Origin: Acidithiobacillus caldus ATCC 51756
GTDB taxonomy: Bacteria; Pseudomonadota; Gammaproteobacteria; Acidithiobacillales; Acidithiobacillaceae
DNA length: 64,000 nucleotides
NCBI RefSeq assembly: GCF_000175575.2
Contig: NZ_CP005986.1
Location: forward strand, 1,808,714-1,872,713
Direction: 5' to 3'
Below, piece by piece: positions 7,149 to 28,007 of the stretch (its first letter is position 1; each line of letters opens with the position of its first letter). The notes beneath the pieces were generated by a model. It saw only the letters and a list, made by a program, of their open reading frames with translations, was not told where the DNA came from and searched no databases. The translations under genes and the position numbers were made by a program.

Positions 7149-8567
7149 GAGCTATGCTCGAATCTGGTGTACGGGAGGTCTACAACTAGCTTGAGGAGGG
7201 TGGCGCACTGTTGCTAGAAAAGGGTTTCTGGATCCGATTCGCAACGAATGAGGAGTGCGCCATGCAAGAGAGTACTGGTTTCGACGGAGGAATGGGAGAG
7301 TTGGGCCTGAACATCGAGGGCTTATTGCGGCGGTCCGCGCGCCAGCTGATCCAACAGGCCATCGAGGGCGAGGTGCAGGTGCTGCTGGAGGAGTATGCCG
7401 CGGTACGCATGGTCGATGGTCGCCGGGCCGTCGTGCGGAATGGATATCTGCCGGAGCGGGAGATCCTGACAGCGGTCGGCCCCGTGCCTGTACAGGTCCC
7501 CAAGGTGCGAGACCGCTCCGGTTCGGGCGTGGTCTTCCGTTCTTCCCTGGTACCGCCCTACGTGCGCAAGTCGCGGACCGTGGCCGCAGCGCTCCCCTGG
7601 TTGTACCTGCACGGGGTATCGTCGGGACGGATGCACGAGGCGCTGTCTGTTCTCCTGGGCGAGGAGGCCAAGGGGCTTTCTCCGGCCGTGCTGGGACGCT
7701 TGAAAGTCGAATGGGCGCAAGAGCATGCCCAATGGCAGCGCCGGTCTCTACAGGGAAAACGCTACGCCTATTGGTGGGCCGACGGGGTCTATACCCAGCT
7801 GCGGGCGGAGGACGATCCCCGGATGTGTCTCTTGGTCATTATTGGCGTGACGGCCGAGGGCAAGAAGGAGGTCGTGGCGGTCACCGACGGTTTACGGGAG
7901 TCCAAAGCCTCCTGGCTAGAGATCCTGCGGGACTTGCGCGACCGCGGGCTGCAGGAGGCGCCACTACTGGCCATAGGAGATGGGGCGATGGGTTTCTGGG
8001 CCGCCCTGGACGAGATTTACCCACAAACCCGTCATCAGCGCTGTTGGGTGCACAAGACGGCCAACATCCTCAACGAGCTACCGAAGCGCCTTCAGGGGAA
8101 AGCCAAGGCCGCCCTGCAGGCGATCTGGATGGCCGACACCCGTGAAGCTGCGGAGAAAGCCTGGCAAGCCTTCGTGCGGGACTACCAGGCCAAATATCCC
8201 AGAGCGGTCGCAAAGCTCGAGAAGGACCGGGACGTGCTGCTGACCTTCTTCGACTTCCCGGCAGAGCACTGGCGGCATATCCGCAGCAGCAACGCCATCG
8301 AATCGACCTTCGCCACCGTACGGCAACGCAGCAGCCGCACTAAAAACTGTGTCTCTCGAGCCACTTTCCTTGGCCTGAGCTACAAGCTCATCCAGCAGGC
8401 AGAGAGACACTGGCGCGGGATTCAGCATCCGGAAAGACTGCGCGAGCTCTTTGCCGGGGTGACATTTGTCGATGGGATGCCTGCCAACGAAACCCGGCTG
8501 GATCCTCAACAGGACGCCGCCTGAATCGTGTTAGCAAATGCTCATACACCAATCTTGACCATAGCTC
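7149..8567 (+). mobile_element. IS256-family insertion sequence, copy 1 (1419 bp)
   Basis: Bounded by imperfect inverted repeats that start GAGCTATG and share GGTGTA about 20 bases in (left GAGCTATGCTCGAATCTGGT, right read inward GAGCTATGGTCAAGATTGGT). It is flanked by the 9-bp direct duplication GCCGAAACC. It encodes one transposase on the plus strand. The second copy at 25361-26779 has the same length, and the sequence looks identical by eye. Confidence 0.93.
7262..8524 (+). CDS. IS256-family transposase
   Basis: A 420-residue transposase. ATG 7262 behind GAGGAGTGCGCC is preferred to the upstream TTG 7211. Residues carrying the DDE-type site are visible: the Asp in YWWADGVYTQL, the Asp in LAIGDGAMGFWAAL, and the Glu in SSNAIESTFATVRQRSSRTK, the characteristic C-terminal IS256 motif. 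RCWVHKTANIL is also typical. The gene looks intact and is duplicated at 25474-26736. Confidence 0.95.
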   Translation: MQESTGFDGGMGELGLNIEGLLRRSARQLIQQAIEGEVQVLLEEYAAVRMVDGRRAVVRNGYLPEREILTAVGPVPVQVPKVRDRSGSGVVFRSSLVPPYVRKSRTVAAALPWLYLHGVSSGRMHEALSVLLGEEAKGLSPAVLGRLKVEWAQEHAQWQRRSLQGKRYAYWWADGVYTQLRAEDDPRMCLLVIIGVTAEGKKEVVAVTDGLRESKASWLEILRDLRDRGLQEAPLLAIGDGAMGFWAALDEIYPQTRHQRCWVHKTANILNELPKRLQGKAKAALQAIWMADTREAAEKAWQAFVRDYQAKYPRAVAKLEKDRDVLLTFFDFPAEHWRHIRSSNAIESTFATVRQRSSRTKNCVSRATFLGLSYKLIQQAERHWRGIQHPERLRELFAGVTFVDGMPANETRLDPQQDAA

Positions 8568-17670: not shown

Positions 17671-17697
17671 GGCGCCCTTATGGGCGTCTTTTTTTTG
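17671..17697 (+). terminator. Rho-independent terminator
   Basis: GGCGCCC, loop TTAT, GGGCGTC, then eight T, 28 bp after the barrel gene stop. Confidence 0.85.
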
Positions 17698-17753
17698 GTC
17701 AGTCGCGCGTCCATCGAGGTTGATGTTTTGCAGTAGGGGGTGGATGCGCGGCG

Positions 17754-17812: not shown

Positions 17813-17839
17813 TCATCGGGCAACAGAAAAGGATTGGAT

Positions 17840-20020
17840 ATGAGCAAGCTATTCACGTTGGACCGCTTCGCTGGAGCGGGGCTGCGCCTGCGGTCCTTGC
17901 AAATCCGTGTGGCGCAGGATGTCGATCACTGTCTGGTGGAACCCCTGCCGGAACCCGAAGCCATCACAAGCCGTGATGGGGAGGCGCTGTCCTGCCGGCG
18001 CAGCCTCTGCGGGTTCATCGAAGCGGGTACGGGGGTCGGGAAAACCATCGGCTATCTCGTTCCGCTTTTGGAGTATGCCAGCCAACACAAAAAGCGGGTG
18101 GGCATCAGCACCTACACCCGCTTTCAGCAGCGGCAGGTGGCCAAGGATCTGGCTCTGGTGCAGCAACGGATTTTCGACGGACTCGATCTCCAGGTCGCCA
18201 TCCGGCTGGGTCGGCAGAACTTTGTGAGCCGCGAGCGCGTCGCGTTCTGGCGGGAACGTCTGAAAGGAACGGATTTGCCCAAAGCGTGGGAGGATTTCTT
18301 CGCCTGGGTGGACCGTTGGGACGAATCCACCGATCCGCTGGACACCACCTTTCTCGCCTGGCGGGAGATTTATCCGGACATGCCGGAGTTTTCCGGCCTG
18401 GCGGAAGAGGATTTTGCGTTGCGGGAGGACGAGCCGCATGCGTGGTACGAGGCGCACGCCAAGGCGGCCCAGTCCGCCGATGTGGTCATCACCAACCACG
18501 CCACGTTGCTCATTCACGGTGCCCTGAAGACTGGGCTTCTGGGCGATCTCGACGCGGTGGTCGTCGATGAGGCGGATCAGCTGATCTCGGCGGCCCAGTC
18601 CCTGCTGTCCCGCCGCCTGCGGGCCTCGCTCGTCGTTCGCGACCTGCGTCGTCAGTATCCCGATCCCAGGGAGTTCGATTTCGCCGAGGCCCGACAGGAA
18701 GCTGACGCGATTCAGGACCTCCTCCGGGAACTGGGGGAGACGCTGGAGTATCGGGAAACCCTGCTGTCCGAGTGGCTAGCGCGTTTTCCCGAGGAAAGCG
18801 CGGCTTTACGTGGTCATCTGGATCGATTGATCCCGCTGCTGCCCAGTCCGTCTGCGCGCCGGAATTTTCAGCGGGTGCTGGCGGGCCTCGACGGCGGGGA
18901 AACCGTCGATGTCGTCTATTCGCCCATCCGCCATCTGCCCGCCTTCCATATCGACGATCTGGAGCCGGAGCGTTTCGTCGGGAAGCTGTTCGTGGCTTTT
19001 GGTGAGGACGAGGTTTTTCTCCCCCGCGTCGTCCTGGTATCGGCCACCCTGTCCGATCCCATGACGGAAAAGCTGGATTTCGTTCACCAGACTTTTGGTC
19101 TTTTTCGCCAGCCCTTCTTGACGAGCCGCTACGAACCGGACCGGTTTGGCTCCATGACTTTCGTCCTGCCCGATCCCCGGGTCGGTGCGCCTTTCCTGGT
19201 GGACGATGAGGACCTTTCCGAGCGGATGTGGAATCCCGAGTGGCTGGCCTATGTCGAGAACGCTCTCGGCATCGACGATCACCACAAGCTCCTGCTCACC
19301 CCCTCTTTCGAGGACATCGCCCGATGGATGGAGCGACGCGGGCTGGAAGTTGGGAAAACGCGGCTGCACGATGGCATCCTGTACCACCAGCCGGACGTGC
19401 CCGGAGCGAAGCTCGTGCAGCGCATCGAACAGGACCCGGACGTTCGGGTGGTCATCACCCCGAGCCTGTGGGAAGGCGTCAATCTGCGCCTCGATGGAAA
19501 GCCCTGGATGCAGGACGTGCTCATTTCGAGGGTTCCCATTCCGCCCTACTCGCCTCTGCTTCAGGAGCGGAAAATCGCCTGGCGGCTCGCGCGGCAGGCC
19601 GAGCAGGCCCGCAAGAAGCGGGAGCGTGGCGAAAAGGCCGTCTGGCGCACCGAAGAAGAGGTTCGTGCCGAACTCGTGTGGGAGTCGGCCAAGAAGGCCT
19701 TGCGGCGTCTGCGCCAGGGTCTTGGGCGCGGTATCCGCGACGAACGGGATACCGTTCGGGTGTGGATGCTGGATCCCCGCGTGCTTTTCCCAACGGACGC
19801 CTTGAACGGCCTGCTGTTTGTCGCCGCCGGTCTGGAGGACGGCGAGCATCTGGTGCAGGCCGCCGAAAAGATACCGGCGCATCCCGCCCTGCGGCGGTGG
19901 AGCCAGTCCGTGCCGGCGCGGTTCCGCGGGCAGCTATCCAATGCAGACATTTTCCTGCGCGACGGAACCCTATCGTCGCTGGTTGAATCGGAGGGGGCGC
20001 TGCTATGCACTACGTGCTGA
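17840..20020 (+). CDS. csf4: Csf4, DinG-family helicase of type IV CRISPR-Cas
   Basis: A 726-residue superfamily 2 helicase. ATG 17840 lies behind AAAGGA; TTG 17834 is possible. Walker A is EAGTGVGKTIGYL at about residue 62, motif II is VVVDEADQLISAAQ at about 242, motif III-like LVSATLSDPM at about 399, and the C-terminal motif VI region LRQGLGRGIRDERD at about 627. DinG-like helicases define type IV-A CRISPR systems, where they are needed for interference with plasmids. The next gene overlaps its end. Lacking an obvious Fe-S cysteine cluster, it resembles Csf4 rather than chromosomal DinG. Confidence 0.9.
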   Translation: MSKLFTLDRFAGAGLRLRSLQIRVAQDVDHCLVEPLPEPEAITSRDGEALSCRRSLCGFIEAGTGVGKTIGYLVPLLEYASQHKKRVGISTYTRFQQRQVAKDLALVQQRIFDGLDLQVAIRLGRQNFVSRERVAFWRERLKGTDLPKAWEDFFAWVDRWDESTDPLDTTFLAWREIYPDMPEFSGLAEEDFALREDEPHAWYEAHAKAAQSADVVITNHATLLIHGALKTGLLGDLDAVVVDEADQLISAAQSLLSRRLRASLVVRDLRRQYPDPREFDFAEARQEADAIQDLLRELGETLEYRETLLSEWLARFPEESAALRGHLDRLIPLLPSPSARRNFQRVLAGLDGGETVDVVYSPIRHLPAFHIDDLEPERFVGKLFVAFGEDEVFLPRVVLVSATLSDPMTEKLDFVHQTFGLFRQPFLTSRYEPDRFGSMTFVLPDPRVGAPFLVDDEDLSERMWNPEWLAYVENALGIDDHHKLLLTPSFEDIARWMERRGLEVGKTRLHDGILYHQPDVPGAKLVQRIEQDPDVRVVITPSLWEGVNLRLDGKPWMQDVLISRVPIPPYSPLLQERKIAWRLARQAEQARKKRERGEKAVWRTEEEVRAELVWESAKKALRRLRQGLGRGIRDERDTVRVWMLDPRVLFPTDALNGLLFVAAGLEDGEHLVQAAEKIPAHPALRRWSQSVPARFRGQLSNADIFLRDGTLSSLVESEGALLCTTC

Positions 20021-20688
20021 AAGTGCGCTGCAAAACGCCCATCGCCATGGGCAAGGCGGGTTTCTACTCCGGTCTGGACGCCGTGCTGCTGCATCGCCTC
20101 TGCCTCTGGACGGGGGGAGATACCGATGCGGCGCGGGAGCGCATGCCTCTGGAAAGGGACGGCGAACTCTGGGCCTGTGGGGGCGGCTACAATCCCCAGG
20201 ACGCCCTTTTTCTCTCCCGCACCGCACCCAGGCGGGTGCCCGTCTTTCGGCTTTTCCTGCGGGATGGTGGGTTTCGTGAAATGGCGGACTTGTCTCCGGA
20301 CGAACTGCAAACGCAGATCAACGCCTTTTTCGGTCAGGAAACCGAGGCGACGGGGGACGCCTATGCCGTCGTGCGCAACGCGCGGGAACTGCATTTCCGC
20401 TTCCGTTCCACGGATCCCGAGCGGGTTTTGTATCTCCTGCGTGTCGAGCCTTTCCTGGGGCCAGGGCATTCCGTGGGTTGGGGCGAGATCGAGCACGTGG
20501 AACTCGAGGAAAAAGGCGATGCCGATGCGCTCTGGGTGTACACCGATCCCCTGAACCGCTTGACCCGTCCCGTGCCCATGGACTGGACGGGTGTGGATGG
20601 TCAGGAATCCCTGTCGGCGCTGGAGGCCCCCTACTGGAGCATGCCCAAGGTGCCCGCTCGGGTGCCCTATCCGGTGGGGGTGCGCTGA
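20005..20688 (+). CDS. csf3: Csf3, Cas5-like RAMP subunit of type IV CRISPR-Cas
   Basis: A 227-residue protein starting at ATG 20005, overlapping csf4 by 16 bp. The N-terminal strand YVLKVRCKTPIAMG then FYSGLDAVLLHRL resembles the Csf3/Cas5 opening (basic strand, then a conserved LDGLL-like helix). A glycine-rich loop GPGHSVGWGEIEHVEL at about residue 151 is the RAMP signature. Csf3 caps the 5' handle of the crRNA in the effector complex. Assignment is by fold logic and operon position; lack of the strongest Cas6 features argues against it being the crRNA nuclease. Confidence 0.78.
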   Translation: MHYVLKVRCKTPIAMGKAGFYSGLDAVLLHRLCLWTGGDTDAARERMPLERDGELWACGGGYNPQDALFLSRTAPRRVPVFRLFLRDGGFREMADLSPDELQTQINAFFGQETEATGDAYAVVRNARELHFRFRSTDPERVLYLLRVEPFLGPGHSVGWGEIEHVELEEKGDADALWVYTDPLNRLTRPVPMDWTGVDGQESLSALEAPYWSMPKVPARVPYPVGVR

Positions 20689-21521
20689 TGGAACGGACAC
20701 CGTTACAGGAAGCCGTGTGGTTCTTTTACGAACGGCTGGGACATCGTTTTCCGGCCCCCGACTGGGGGGAGCAACGCGAGGACGTGTGCTCCATCTGCGG
20801 CACGGAGGGGCGGGGCTACGACGATGAACGCCCGAACCATCGGATTTTCCGGTGTCTCGCGTGCACGTCTTTCTATGCGCCGACACCCGACCATTTTCTC
20901 ACCACGGGTAAGGACCGGTCTTTCGCGGGCATCGTGAAGAATCCCTGGGTGCTGGACGCGAACGGACGTTTTCGTTCACCCATTGGCAAGGCGAGCCGCA
21001 AGGACGACGCCTTTGTGGTGAACGCCCGTGCCCATGGGATGGATTTTTACCCTGCGGAAAACCCATTTCAGACCTTGTACCGGGGAATCTACGATGGGGA
21101 GTTCGCTTTCCCGCTCCTTTTCGTCCGCCTTGGGCAGAACAAGATCGAGTCGATGCGGATGATGCGTTTGTCCACGTCCGACATGCTGTTTTTCTGGGAC
21201 AAGAGCGAAATGCGGACCTTCGATCTCGCGCTCGTCCGCGAGGCGGGCCGCTTGCCTTTGGGGGAAAAGCCCTGGTCCGACTGGGCGAGGTGGGGTATTC
21301 CCGAGGATCTTGCCGAGCGTGTGCGTTTTCTCAAGGACGTGCGCGGAAAAGCCCCTTTCCGGGTGCTGACCATGCACGGCGACAACCGGCTTTTCCTGCG
21401 GCAGGTGGTGGACCGCGAAGAGGCGAAAAGACCAAGGCCGAGAAGAAAAAGAGGAGCAGAAAATGAAGATTCTGGACGGAGAAGCACTGCACAAGAAGGC
21501 CTGGGATATCTGGGCGGGTAA
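20688..21521 (+). CDS. csf1: Csf1, large-subunit-like zinc-finger protein of type IV CRISPR-Cas
   Basis: A 277-residue protein; ATG 20688 shares a base with the csf3 stop. A CxxC pair at about residues 34-37 (VCSICGTEG) and another at about 56-59 (RCLACTSFY) form the zinc finger typical of Csf1. After this come KASRKDDAFVVNARAHG and several basic stretches, with a very basic tail (KRPRPRRKRG) that overlaps the next gene. Csf1 is the signature Cas8-like subunit of type IV effector complexes. Confidence 0.85.
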   Translation: MERTPLQEAVWFFYERLGHRFPAPDWGEQREDVCSICGTEGRGYDDERPNHRIFRCLACTSFYAPTPDHFLTTGKDRSFAGIVKNPWVLDANGRFRSPIGKASRKDDAFVVNARAHGMDFYPAENPFQTLYRGIYDGEFAFPLLFVRLGQNKIESMRMMRLSTSDMLFFWDKSEMRTFDLALVREAGRLPLGEKPWSDWARWGIPEDLAERVRFLKDVRGKAPFRVLTMHGDNRLFLRQVVDREEAKRPRPRRKRGAENEDSGRRSTAQEGLGYLGG

Positions 21522-21918
21522 GGCTTCGGTGGACGAGCGGGATTTCCTGTTCGCGCCGTACAGGGACGCCATCGTGTTCCGGTCCCGCTCGGAGCCCTTG
21601 CCGGCCACGCCGGAGGTCTGGCGGATGCGGTCCCTGCTGGCCCCGGTGATGCGCCGTGAGCATCGGGAGCGGGTCGTGAAGCCCAGGGAATTTCGCGGGT
21701 GGCTCGCGTCCCTGCTGGAGCGCCACGGCTGGGTCCTACGCTCCATCGAGAAGGTCGAGTCGATGGAGATGACCATCCGTCACGGTCGACGTCTCACGGT
21801 CGTCGATACGGTGTTCACCGCGCAGGTGGTGGATCGGGAAAACGCCGACCAGTCCTACCGGAGCGGCATCGGTCGGTACAAGGCTTTTGGCTGCGGAATG
21901 CTGATTCCGCAGGGTTGA
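21463..21918 (+). CDS. Short Cas6-like crRNA endonuclease (Csf5/Cas6e-like)
   Basis: A 151-residue protein starting at ATG 21463 behind GAGGAGCAGAAA, overlapping csf1 by 59 bp. DGEALHKKAWDIW then ERDFLFAPYRDAIVFRSR resembles the first ferredoxin-like domain of Cas6e, and GIGRYKAFGCGMLIPQG is the C-terminal glycine-rich loop of Cas6 proteins. It is shorter than usual (about 200-250 residues) and appears to lack the first strand. The I-E-like hairpin repeats of the arrays are the expected substrate. It is followed directly by the mini-array. Confidence 0.72.
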   Translation: MKILDGEALHKKAWDIWAGKASVDERDFLFAPYRDAIVFRSRSEPLPATPEVWRMRSLLAPVMRREHRERVVKPREFRGWLASLLERHGWVLRSIEKVESMEMTIRHGRRLTVVDTVFTAQVVDRENADQSYRSGIGRYKAFGCGMLIPQG

Positions 21919-22002
21919 TCGCGGCTTTCCGTCGATCGGCGGAAAGCGAACCGTTCTTTCAAAATCGAGCGTGCGTTTGTCCGATAGGATTTTCCTAACG
22001 GA

Positions 22003-22023
22003 AACCGTGTGTTGCGCAATAGG
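22003..22023 (+). promoter_or_regulatory. Leader end of mini-array
   Basis: The bases before the first repeat, ending GTGTTGCGCAATAGG, closely match the bases before the main array (GTGTTGAGAGATAGA). The shared segment probably marks the leader-repeat junction. Confidence 0.5.
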
Positions 22024-22290
22024 GTCGTCCCCGCGTGTGCGGGGGAAATCCGAGGTGCAGTCGAGGCTCCCGCTACCAGCCGACGTCGTCCCCGCGTGTG
22101 CGGGGGAAATCCTAATGATGCTGAAAAGTTGGGGCAGGTCTGGTCGTCGTCCCCGCGTGTGCGGGGGAAATCCTCCTTGCAGTCCGCATTTCGCATTTGC
22201 TGCGTTTTCGTCCTCGCAATGTGCGGGGGAAGGCTTCGCATTTCGCATTTGCCGCGGGCATGGTCGTCCCCGCGTCGGCGGGGGGATTCG
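22024..22290 (+). CRISPR. CRISPR mini-array between cas6-like gene and csf2
   Basis: Three intact 28-bp repeats (22024-22051, 22085-22112, 22146-22173) start GTCGTCCCCGCG and end TGTGCGGGGGAAATCC. Two decayed repeats follow (22207-22234 and 22263-22290). The first three spacers are 33 bp, the last 28 bp. The repeat differs from the main array at two sites (TGTGC for TGCGC, AAATCC for AAAACC). The array lies inside the cas gene cluster and ends 46 bp before csf2. Confidence 0.88.
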
Positions 22291-22336
22291 CACCGAAATC
22301 GGTGTTTTTTGTTCGTTTGATAAGAGGAGACACGAT

Positions 22337-23311
22337 ATGTCGATGTTGGAAACTCTGGATGTTTCGGGAAAACTGCTGGCCGTTTCGCCTATCGCGGTGT
22401 CGCCGCCCGGAGCGGCGTTTTCGTCGGACGACAAGGGGGCACCGCAGCGGCTTCCTTCGGTCGGCAAGAACCGCTACCTGCCGGCATCCACCTTTCGTCA
22501 CGTCCTGCGCTACGGGACCATACGGGTGGTGCAGGAAGCCATGAAAGCGCAGGGGAAAAGCTTGAGCCTGGACGCCCTGCTCATGCTGGACAAAGGGTTC
22601 TTTGCGCAGCGGAAAAAGGACAAGGGAACCCTCCCAGGCCGGAGCAACGGCAAAATGAAAGCCAAGGACGTCCTGCGCATGGAACAGGAAGTGCGGGAAA
22701 AGAACCCGCTGCTGGGTCTCTTTGGGGTGTGGACCATCCCGTCCATGCTGCGGGTGCGCAACGCCTTCCCGATCCCCAACGCGCAGGGGCAGACCTACAC
22801 GGTGGCGTCGGGCCTCGTGCGCAAGGCGCTGGAAGAGGATCTGGTGGACGCCTTGACCAAGGAGGATGCGGAGGACTATCTCCAGCGTCTCGACGACTGG
22901 TCGGAGGCCGACAAGGAGACCACGGGCCTCAAGCACATCAGCGAGCGCCCCTGGGAGGAGATCGTGGCTGGTGTGGAGTGCGAATGGGGCTACCAGATCC
23001 ACAGGTTTACGCCCTTCCAGTCCGGCGCGGTACTGGCTGGTCTGCGCTACTTCGCCAGCGATCCGGTCATCGGTGCGCACAAGGCGGTCGGGCGCGGTGA
23101 GCTGGCGATGGAACTGAACGCCAGCGTCATCCGCCAGGATATCCTGAACGGCCCCCAAAGCGCGGAAGCCGGAACGCTCACCCTGCGGCGCGGAGAATTC
23201 CGTGTGGATGGTCTGCTGGCCGAGCATCTATCCGAATTCGACCGGCTGGCGAAGGCGGGTTTTCCGGGGATGGATTTCCATTGCCTGCCCGCGCTGGTGG
23301 AGGGGGAGTGA
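22337..23311 (+). CDS. csf2: Csf2, Cas7-like backbone subunit of type IV CRISPR-Cas
   Basis: A 324-residue protein. ATG 22337 lies behind AAGAGGAG; the longer frame runs back into the mini-array and is not used. The N-terminal LLAVSPIAVSPPGA and NRYLPASTFRHVLRYGTIRV fit the Cas7 opening, where Leu-Pro-Ala/Gly-Ser-x-Arg is conserved. A long helical insert (about 70-190) is followed by CEWGYQIHRFTPFQSGAVLAGL and a Gly-rich AVGRGELAMEL. Csf2 polymerises along the crRNA spacer. It is separated from the other csf genes by the mini-array, so its expression may be set separately. Confidence 0.85.
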   Translation: MSMLETLDVSGKLLAVSPIAVSPPGAAFSSDDKGAPQRLPSVGKNRYLPASTFRHVLRYGTIRVVQEAMKAQGKSLSLDALLMLDKGFFAQRKKDKGTLPGRSNGKMKAKDVLRMEQEVREKNPLLGLFGVWTIPSMLRVRNAFPIPNAQGQTYTVASGLVRKALEEDLVDALTKEDAEDYLQRLDDWSEADKETTGLKHISERPWEEIVAGVECEWGYQIHRFTPFQSGAVLAGLRYFASDPVIGAHKAVGRGELAMELNASVIRQDILNGPQSAEAGTLTLRRGEFRVDGLLAEHLSEFDRLAKAGFPGMDFHCLPALVEGE

Positions 23312-23330
23312 GTGTGGAAAATCGCATAAA

Positions 23331-23351
23331 AACAGAGTGTTGAGAGATAGA
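23331..23351 (+). promoter_or_regulatory. Leader end of main CRISPR array
   Basis: AACAGAGTGTTGAGAGATAGA directly before repeat 1, similar to the mini-array junction. The preceding AATCGCATAAAAAC could supply a -10 element for array transcription. Confidence 0.5.
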
Positions 23352-24348
23352 GTCGTCCCCGCGTGCGCGGGGGAAAACCGTGGGCATCTCCCAATCGCGC
23401 GCGCAGGTGTGCGTCGTCCCCGCGTGCGCGGGGGAGAACTGGCTTCGAGACCGACGCGACCGTGGTGCAGGCCGTCGTCCCCGCGTGCGCGGGGGAAAAC
23501 CGGGATCAGCGGCGTACTCATCCACTTGTGGGCCGTCGTCCCCGCGTGCGCGGGGGAAAACCTTACAGTATGGCGCGGAACGCAGCCGGTGGCGTGTCGT
23601 CCCCGTGTGCGCGGTGGAAACCTGATCACCGGGACAAAACCGGGCGGCGGTCGTCCCCGCATGTGCGGGGGAAACCCGCTCCGGACTCCGCTCGTACCCG
23701 TCATTCACCGGCGTCCCCGCGTGCGCGGGGGAAAACCTCATCGCTATACCAATGCGCAAGGGGCGGACCCGGCGTCCCCGCGTGCGCGGGGGAAAACCCG
23801 CCTTGAGCTCCCTGTTCCGCCATGTGGAGGAGTCGTCCCCGCGTACGCGGGGGAAAACCGGGCGCTGCGGTGGGGGATGACATTTCCCAAAAGTCGTCCC
23901 CGCGTACGCGGGGGAAAACCGTACGCGGCTCATGCACACCATTCCAGCGATGGGTCGTCCCCGCGTGCGCGGGGGAAAACCGAGAAAGCAGGAGATTGGA
24001 GAGCGTTCTCTATTGTCGTCCCCGTGTACGCGGGGGAAAACCCCGAGCCAGCACCCGACTCTTGATAGCGAATCTGTAGTCCCCGCGTATGCGGGGGAGA
24101 ACCGCAACCGTACCGGACCCCGCGCCGCCCACGCTAGTAGTCCCCGCGTATGCGGGGGAGAACCAGTCGATATCAGCGGAAACGCTTCGGACATTGCGCC
24201 GTCCCCGCGTATGCGGAGGAGAACCACAAGCGGCCAGGTCTCCCGTCATGCTCAAGAAGTCGTCCCCGCGTACGCGGGGGAAAACCGTACACCATGGCGC
24301 AAATAATCGACTTTCTGGCCGTCGTCCCCGCGTGCGCGGGGGAAAACC
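23352..24348 (+). CRISPR. Main type IV CRISPR array, 17 repeats, 16 spacers
   Basis: 28-bp repeats starting GTCGTCCCCGCG and ending GCGCGGGGGAAAACC with a 61-bp period, so most spacers are 33 bp. Repeats start at 23352, 23413, 23474, 23535, 23596, 23650, 23710, 23771, 23832, 23893, 23954, 24015, 24076, 24137, 24198, 24259 and 24321. Repeats 5 and 13-15 carry several changes, spacer 5 is short (about 26 bp), and the last repeat is intact. The palindrome CCCCGCGTGCGCGGGG gives the stem-loop cut by Cas6. No cas1 or cas2 is nearby. Confidence 0.95.
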
Positions 24349-24835: not shown

Positions 24836-24942
24836 GGTGGCCTCCTTTTTTCCACCAAAATCGCAAGGTTAGAGTAACATAAAACGCTTTTGTTCAAAAA
24901 GTCGGGATTTTGTGCATGGAATGGTCACCGCCTTGCGGGTTC

Positions 24943-24950
24943 GCTATACC
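24943..24950 (+). promoter_or_regulatory. Box A promoter element upstream of helicase gene
   Basis: GCTATACC within GTTCGCTATACCCAGG, 96 bp before ATG 25046. A variant, GCTATACG, lies at 25004-25011 (35 bp before the start) and fits the usual spacing better. Confidence 0.5.
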
Positions 24951-24987
24951 CAGGAATACGCGAACGACGATCGGGTGCTGCTTCCGC

Positions 24988-25006
24988 TGACGAGACGATC
25001 TGCGCT
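24988..25006 (+). promoter_or_regulatory. Box B motif upstream of helicase gene
   Basis: TGACGAGACGATCTGCGCT, two differences from the consensus, ending in the GCTATACG variant of box A. Confidence 0.5.
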
Positions 25007-25360
25007 ATACGGGAAAAGACGGACAGGACGAGCAGGACCAACACGATGCAATTGACCGACGAACAGCAAAAGGCCGTTGCCATGGCCCAAAAAATGGAAA
25101 GCTTCAAGGTGTCGGCTCTTGCCGGTACCGGCAAAACCTCGACGCTGGTGGCTATCGCCAAGGCCATGGGCAATCGCCGAGGGCTGTACCTCGCATTCAA
25201 TGCCGCCATCGCTGCGGAAGCCAAGCAGCGATTCCGGGGTACGCAATGCGAGAGCCGGACTTTCCATTCCTTGGCCTATCGGGAGTGTGGCTACAAGTAC
25301 AAAAACCGTATGCATGCGCGGTTGACGGGGAGTTTCTTGCGCCGGCGTTTTGGGGTGAAC

Positions 25361-26779
25361 GAGCTATGCTCGAATCTGGTGTACGGGAGGTCTACAACTA
25401 GCTTGAGGAGGGTGGCGCACTGTTGCTAGAAAAGGGTTTCTGGATCCGATTCGCAACGAATGAGGAGTGCGCCATGCAAGAGAGTACTGGTTTCGACGGA
25501 GGAATGGGAGAGTTGGGCCTGAACATCGAGGGCTTATTGCGGCGGTCCGCGCGCCAGCTGATCCAACAGGCCATCGAGGGCGAGGTGCAGGTGCTGCTGG
25601 AGGAGTATGCCGCGGTACGCATGGTCGATGGTCGCCGGGCCGTCGTGCGGAATGGATATCTGCCGGAGCGGGAGATCCTGACAGCGGTCGGCCCCGTGCC
25701 TGTACAGGTCCCCAAGGTGCGAGACCGCTCCGGTTCGGGCGTGGTCTTCCGTTCTTCCCTGGTACCGCCCTACGTGCGCAAGTCGCGGACCGTGGCCGCA
25801 GCGCTCCCCTGGTTGTACCTGCACGGGGTATCGTCGGGACGGATGCACGAGGCGCTGTCTGTTCTCCTGGGCGAGGAGGCCAAGGGGCTTTCTCCGGCCG
25901 TGCTGGGACGCTTGAAAGTCGAATGGGCGCAAGAGCATGCCCAATGGCAGCGCCGGTCTCTACAGGGAAAACGCTACGCCTATTGGTGGGCCGACGGGGT
26001 CTATACCCAGCTGCGGGCGGAGGACGATCCCCGGATGTGTCTCTTGGTCATTATTGGCGTGACGGCCGAGGGCAAGAAGGAGGTCGTGGCGGTCACCGAC
26101 GGTTTACGGGAGTCCAAAGCCTCCTGGCTAGAGATCCTGCGGGACTTGCGCGACCGCGGGCTGCAGGAGGCGCCACTACTGGCCATAGGAGATGGGGCGA
26201 TGGGTTTCTGGGCCGCCCTGGACGAGATTTACCCACAAACCCGTCATCAGCGCTGTTGGGTGCACAAGACGGCCAACATCCTCAACGAGCTACCGAAGCG
26301 CCTTCAGGGGAAAGCCAAGGCCGCCCTGCAGGCGATCTGGATGGCCGACACCCGTGAAGCTGCGGAGAAAGCCTGGCAAGCCTTCGTGCGGGACTACCAG
26401 GCCAAATATCCCAGAGCGGTCGCAAAGCTCGAGAAGGACCGGGACGTGCTGCTGACCTTCTTCGACTTCCCGGCAGAGCACTGGCGGCATATCCGCAGCA
26501 GCAACGCCATCGAATCGACCTTCGCCACCGTACGGCAACGCAGCAGCCGCACTAAAAACTGTGTCTCTCGAGCCACTTTCCTTGGCCTGAGCTACAAGCT
26601 CATCCAGCAGGCAGAGAGACACTGGCGCGGGATTCAGCATCCGGAAAGACTGCGCGAGCTCTTTGCCGGGGTGACATTTGTCGATGGGATGCCTGCCAAC
26701 GAAACCCGGCTGGATCCTCAACAGGACGCCGCCTGAATCGTGTTAGCAAATGCTCATACACCAATCTTGACCATAGCTC
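25361..26779 (+). mobile_element. IS256-family insertion sequence, copy 2 (1419 bp)
   Basis: Same length and inverted repeats as the copy at 7149, and apparently the same sequence, but flanked by a different 9-bp duplication, GGGGTGAAC. The two copies are in direct orientation 18.2 kb apart and bracket the relaxase-to-CRISPR region. Confidence 0.93.
25474..26736 (+). CDS. IS256-family transposase (copy 2)
   Basis: A 420-residue protein, the same translation as the transposase at 7262-8524, with the same ATG behind GAGGAGTGCGCC. The DDE region and the C-terminal SNAIESTFATVRQR motif are intact. Confidence 0.95.
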   Translation: MQESTGFDGGMGELGLNIEGLLRRSARQLIQQAIEGEVQVLLEEYAAVRMVDGRRAVVRNGYLPEREILTAVGPVPVQVPKVRDRSGSGVVFRSSLVPPYVRKSRTVAAALPWLYLHGVSSGRMHEALSVLLGEEAKGLSPAVLGRLKVEWAQEHAQWQRRSLQGKRYAYWWADGVYTQLRAEDDPRMCLLVIIGVTAEGKKEVVAVTDGLRESKASWLEILRDLRDRGLQEAPLLAIGDGAMGFWAALDEIYPQTRHQRCWVHKTANILNELPKRLQGKAKAALQAIWMADTREAAEKAWQAFVRDYQAKYPRAVAKLEKDRDVLLTFFDFPAEHWRHIRSSNAIESTFATVRQRSSRTKNCVSRATFLGLSYKLIQQAERHWRGIQHPERLRELFAGVTFVDGMPANETRLDPQQDAA

Positions 26780-28007
26780 GGGGTGAACGGGGATCTGGCT
26801 GCCGCCATTGCGGAAACGGCCATGCGCACCATCCGTGCCTTTCTGCGCACCGTCGACCCGAAGATCGAAGCCCAGCATGTGCGCAGTAGCGATTATTGCC
26901 GGGTTATCGACAGGAAATTCCGTCTGGCCCTGGAGGAATATCGGTACATGCCGGATGGGGAAGATCGGGACCATCTGCGGCAGTATATCGCGCTTCTGGA
27001 GCAGCATCGGGCCACTTGCCATCAGATCGGAAAAGAAGGGCTATCGCTCGCACGGCGGGTCTGGGACGATATGGAAGACCCAAAAGGGGAAACCCCCATC
27101 GTCCACGACTTCTATCTGCGCGAATACGTGCTGTCGCAACCCGATCTGGGGCGCTGGTATCGGTATCTGCTTTTCGATGAAGCGCAGGACGCGGATCCGC
27201 TCATGCTCTTTCTCACCCAGTCGCAAAAGATCCCCGTGTTCTATGTCGGGGATGCGTACCAGCAGATCTACGAGTGGCGCGGTGCGGCCAACGCCATGGA
27301 GAGCCTCGACCTGCCTGAATCGACGCTGACCCTGTCCTTTCGCTTTGGTCAGGCGGTGGCGGACGACGCCAACGAGGTACTGGATTTGCTCGGTTCCAGG
27401 CTGTATCTGCGCGGGAATCCAGAAAAATCGTCGCTGGTCCGGATGGGGAAATGCGGAGAACTACCGTCTGCTGGGGGGAACGGTAGCCGCGCCATTGTCG
27501 TTCGCACCAACGCCGAGGCGGTACAGCAGACCCTGAGTGGGCTGATGTCGGGTCGCCGTGTAGGGCTGTGCGGTGCATCCTCCATCCGCAGTTTCCTGAA
27601 AGGATATCAGGACCTGATCGAGGGCAATCCCAGTGGCGAATTCGTGTATTTCCAGAATGAGCAGGAACTTCGGGAATTCGCCCAGACCGACATGGGCCAG
27701 GATCTGCGCATGCTGGTGAAGCTGGTCGATGAATACGGTATCGAGGAACTGGAGCGCATGGTGGAACGGGCCGTGGACCTCGACCGGAGCACGGGGCGTG
27801 TGGATATCTCCGTGACGACGGCCCACAAATCCAAGGGCCTCGAATTCGATCGGGTGTTCGTGAGCGAGGAACTGTTCAATCCCAAGCGCCTGGAAAGCGA
27901 TGAGGAAAAGCGCCTTTTGTACGTCGCCAAGACCCGCGCCAAGCAGGTGCTGTGCAACGCCCGTCCTTTGGTAGCGGCGTAAGCACCATCGCCCCGCCCT
28001 CGCCTTC

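Follow-up and report, generated by a model that had tools for sequence, protein, structure and literature searches.

A probable crRNA-producing second array beside csf2 in the type IV-A CRISPR locus of Acidithiobacillus caldus

The locus and its cas genes

The type IV-A CRISPR system of Acidithiobacillus caldus ATCC 51756, which is carried on an ICE, contains a short array of repeats directly upstream of csf2. We consider it likely that this mini-array is a genuine, non-adapting second type IV-A CRISPR array, which would make crRNAs, is old and keeps a conserved place beside csf2. Within the window (the whole stretch of 64,000 nucleotides analysed, from contig NZ_CP005986.1), the order on the plus strand is csf4/CasDinG, csf3, a csf1-like gene, a Cas6e-like gene, the mini-array, csf2 and the main array, the last of which comprises 17 repeats at 23352–24348 by repeat comparison. 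This single locus thereby holds csf2, csf3, a Cas6-type enzyme, CasDinG and a CRISPR array, the combination by which type IV-A is recognized.

The csf4/CasDinG helicase gene (17834–20020) matched the PADLOC typeIV_DinG profile Csf4_0_IVA (E = 4e-95) and, below the cut-off, TIGR03117 (E = 2e-22). It overlaps the Cas5-like csf3 gene (20005–20688; PADLOC typeIV_Cas5, E = 8e-16), which is 36% identical to its counterpart in L034, a related locus from another family. The csf1-like gene of the zinc-finger type (20685–21521) matched no profile and gave weak tblastn matches to equally placed genes in L034 and in G026, a genome of the window's own family. The gene for the Cas6e-like crRNA endonuclease (21463–21918) matched PF08798 (E = 2e-11) and PADLOC Cas6e (E = 2e-12). 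A phmmer search of this protein against the PDB returned no useful match; it retains His10, which is invariant across an alignment of five type IV Cas6e-like proteins. The gene for the Cas7-like backbone subunit, csf2 (22337–23311), matched PADLOC Csf2_0_IV (E = 1e-27) and TIGR03115 (E = 1e-11, below the curated cut-off). Because the genes from csf4 to cas6 overlap, they are probably co-transcribed. A strong terminator-like hairpin followed by eight T, at 17671–17700 just 5′ of csf4, divides this operon from the preceding gene. Beyond the main array, a UvrD-like helicase gene (24890–27982) is apparently split by an IS256-family transposase gene (25423–26736; NF033543, E = 4e-92), with the N-terminal part running to about 25429 and the C-terminal part resuming at 26783.

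Five Cas-like genes and two repeat-arrays have been reported in ICEAcaTY.2, one of the A. caldus ICE-2 elements, and strain SM-1 also has two arrays with a similar organization and no spacers in common (Acuna et al. 2013, PMC3826726). The ICEAcaTY.2 locus is almost certainly the present one, so a second array as such was already known; the position of the array relative to csf2, its processing, the terminator and the self-matches described below are absent from that paper (PMC3826726). Parts that we count as new here may have been described before in the literature on Acidithiobacillia type IV loci. Moya-Beltran et al. reportedly treated Acidithiobacillia type IV loci in 2021, and theirs is the paper most likely to describe loci of this kind.

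Anatomy of the mini-array

Repeat comparison mapped five repeats at 22024–22290, in agreement with the original prediction of three intact and two decaying repeats between the cas6-like gene and csf2. The intact repeats R1 (22024–22051), R2 (22085–22112) and R3 (22146–22173) are identical 28-mers, GTCGTCCCCGCGTGTGCGGGGGAAATCC, which start at 22024, 22085 and 22146 with a spacing of 61 nt and are separated by spacers of 33 nt. This part of the array has the regular repeats and the unrelated spacers of constant length expected of a CRISPR array, and spacers S3 and S4 are irregular. R4 (about 22209–22236) is degenerate, with one extra base and about five changes, and keeps its hairpin. It is followed by the short spacer S4 (22237–22262) and by the degenerate repeat R5 (22263–22290), in which the predicted Cas6 cut falls after 22283. 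S3 and S4 have a 20-mer in common with one difference, a pattern that suggests duplication of one unit followed by decay; no further copy of this 20-mer was found in the genome.

The repeat differs from that of the main array at two sites, as had been noted from the sequence, and we place these at positions 15 and 26 of the consensus. T26 is confined to the mini-array, and T15 is also present in 4 of the 17 main-array repeats. A genome-wide search allowing up to 3 mismatches matched the repeat only at the present locus, which excludes chance as an explanation for the repeats. A search of Rfam and a search for the repeat in viral contigs returned nothing. Through the array runs a long open frame (21971–23311), which we rejected as a gene and take to be a by-product of GC-rich repeats.

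The decay, which is located at the leader-distal end, has spared the hairpin. All five mini-array repeats keep the stem, and likewise the G after GCGGGG. None of the five changes in R5 falls within the twelve stem positions, and the stem change in R4 yields a G–U pair. Two repeats in the main array (23596–23623 and 24198–24225) are decayed with broken stems, unlike those of the mini-array, although the numbers are small.

The 22 nt adjoining the first mini-array repeat (22002–22023) resemble the main-array leader at 23330–23351, with 16 of 22 positions identical, and these two leader edges form the only such pair of 22-mers within the window. An alternative offered alongside the original prediction, a remnant of an older array that has a leader of its own, is supported as well. 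L034 has almost no room for a leader ahead of its first repeat, which counts against our reading of the mini-array as a genuine second array. At the other end, an intrinsic-terminator-like hairpin of six pairs with a T run (22290–22311) lies between R5 and csf2. It folds far better than shuffled sequences, and the window contains three sites of this class on both strands against 0.35 expected. A scan for one promoter type found no consensus promoter upstream of the mini-array or near csf2.

Related loci and candidate regulatory guides

In about 1,660 genome look-ups, with some genomes repeated, we found one close relative of Csf2, which is 43% identical and belongs to L034. This locus reads cas6, mini-array (five repeats and one degenerate), csf2, csf4, csf3, csf1-like gene, main array. 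The order cas6, mini-array, csf2 in a second family is new here, on the basis of two loci. As in the window, the L034 mini-array uses a variant form of the repeat in its main array. The repeat nearest csf2 follows a shortened spacer, again as in the window, and keeps an intact stem beside a decayed loop and decayed flanks. The two repeats on the cas6 side of the L034 mini-array lack the same 2 bases, an indication that spacers were once gained at this end. The blocks csf4–csf3–csf1 and cas6–array–csf2 stand in opposite order in the window (17834–23311) and in L034 (7495–13198), as if swapped, while the main array comes last in both.

In G026, an array of 11 repeats lies directly ahead of csf2 and a second array follows two apparent cas1 and cas2 genes; the leaders of the two arrays are similar. 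The type IV-A locus in question (L017, G026 C712, 1–7870) has the order array–csf2–csf4–csf1–csf3–cas6–cas1–cas2–array. Two further Csf2 matches, L051 and L052, show the canonical order csf1–cas6–dinG–csf3–csf2. The same order is found in type IV-A operons on plasmids of Klebsiella, Alteromonas and Aeromonas. These share with the present locus a Cas6e-like enzyme, CasDinG, csf3 and csf2, with an array following csf2, but have none before it. Searches of viral contigs, genome contigs and phages returned no close relatives of Csf2 or DinG.

The strongest sequence evidence for a regulatory crRNA, a reading that the original prediction overlooked, comes from L034 rather than from the window. If 8 nt downstream of the predicted Cas6 cut are taken as the handle, the last unit of the L034 mini-array yields a guide whose first 17 nt are CGTCATCGGCCGAATAC. 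This stretch has an exact match once in the locus, on the minus strand at 7422–7406, about 75 bp upstream of cas6, and 0 of 2,000 shuffles equalled it. The four bases preceding the target are AAGC, so that AAG is present but offset by one. In types I and V-A, Cas-regulating RNAs (CreR) have been described whose guides are partially complementary to the promoter of the cas operon they belong to (PMC12737573, PMC13131331), and the last L034 unit shows such complementarity to what is presumably the promoter. Like CreR (PMC12737573, PMC13131331), it lies inside the cas locus, resembles a crRNA unit, includes a degenerate repeat and is partially complementary to DNA upstream of the cas operon to which it belongs. 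The present system differs from those with CreR (PMC12737573, PMC13131331) in being type IV-A and nuclease-free, and in that the unit in the window lacks a convincing match. We did not find CreR autorepression in type IV described in the literature searched, in which coverage of Acidithiobacillia type IV work is incomplete.

A precedent for repression by such a system is the type IV-A1 system of P. oleovorans, in which a self-targeting crRNA represses a chromosomal gene, pilN, without cutting (PMC11551745). It is alike in that a type IV-A crRNA serves as natural repression without DNA cleavage, and it differs in that it is directed at a pilus gene of the host and that the guide comes from an ordinary array rather than an operon mini-array (PMC11551745). 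Because type IV-A silences without cutting, a self-directed guide would be harmless to DNA and could easily turn into a regulator. We put at about even the chance that, in the lineage represented by L034, the last mini-array unit is a Cas-regulating crRNA with which the nuclease-free Csf complex would repress its own operon; Cas6 cutting of the array could free the csf2 message there as well. If true, this would extend CRISPR autoregulation to a nuclease-free system on mobile elements and would explain why the array is kept within the operon. If there is no such guide, the mini-array is an ordinary second array in a known locus.

A similar autorepressor in the window is improbable in our judgement. 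It would require that a crRNA from R4–S4–R5 guide the nuclease-free Csf complex to csf1 at 21214–21205, lowering expression of the operon. The L034 unit with the 17-nt seed match upstream of cas6 has the same ordinal place, and S4, whose first 10 nt match this antisense site, gives the only mini-array guide with an operon seed of at least 10 nt. When 83 guides from eight arrays were compared with their own operons, seeds of at least 10 nt occurred only in L034 (17) and in the window (10). Spacer 3 also has 13 nt in common with the csf1 site, a result reached in 10 of 1,000 shuffles, although this match is out of register. The 10-nt match itself is near chance level, however, since about 2% of random guides have a seed of at least 10 nt; moreover, the flanking bases are GTC and not AAG, and the site, on the minus strand, lies within csf1 rather than at a promoter. 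Upstream of csf4, the matches of mini-array spacers, including R4–S4–R5, were not above chance, and a CreR acting at the csf4 promoter was rejected for this reason. Self-matches in the arrays of G026, Klebsiella and Alteromonas and in both main arrays were also at chance level. We regard the matches of S4 and spacer 3 as a lead rather than evidence.

crRNA production, csf2 control and decay

Because even the decayed repeats have intact stems, Cas6 could plausibly cut each of the repeats, and processing of the mini-array into crRNAs is predicted from these stems and from the Cas6 histidine. In the mechanism that we favour, the array extends from a leader edge on the cas6 side through three intact and, at the far end, two degenerate repeats to an intrinsic terminator. 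Its transcribed repeats would fold into hairpins, the Cas6e-like enzyme would cut at the 3′ base of each stem, and up to four crRNAs would be released for the Csf complex. Making crRNAs would be the main role of the array. The equivalent array in L034 has a last unit that resembles a Cas-regulating crRNA aimed upstream of its own cas6 operon. We infer the steps of transcription, Cas6 cutting, crRNA loading and repression.

The original prediction gave this processing another purpose, proposing that the operon is one transcript, that Cas6 cutting in the mini-array frees the csf2 mRNA and that the amount of backbone subunit is thereby controlled through Cas6. The cleavable array stands as a prediction, with five of five stems intact and the Cas6 histidine present, whereas control of csf2 as its purpose is not supported; the terminator-like hairpin between R5 and csf2 argues against simple read-through. 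Probable co-transcription from csf4 to cas6 would suit such a switch, as would the retention of the stem in all repeats, including, in the window as in L034, the csf2-proximal repeat, which is otherwise decayed. A cut in R5 would leave csf2 a 53-nt leader with a ribosome-binding site (29 nt in L034). However, crRNA production needs intact stems too, and plasmid type IV-A operons manage without an array before csf2. We therefore rank trimming of the csf2 message as secondary because of the terminator, a by-product that would affect those transcripts that read through into csf2, and we think it quite unlikely that a processing switch accounts for the array.

It is also unlikely, if somewhat less so, that the mini-array is a silenced, decaying leftover that yields no useful RNA. 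Two of the five repeats have decayed, and S3 and S4 resemble a decayed duplicate. A search of the genome returned no cas1 gene, so the mini-array would gain no spacers through the genome's own machinery. Targets of S1 and S2 are likewise lacking, with no convincing protospacers in plasmids, although few databases cover plasmids of acidophiles, and no other site for S2 across 29 genomes; this lack also counts against the reading that we favour. Against an inert array stand the three identical repeats and the intact stems, together with the retained leader similarity and terminator. The position beside csf2 is conserved in relatives, and both published strains carry two arrays.
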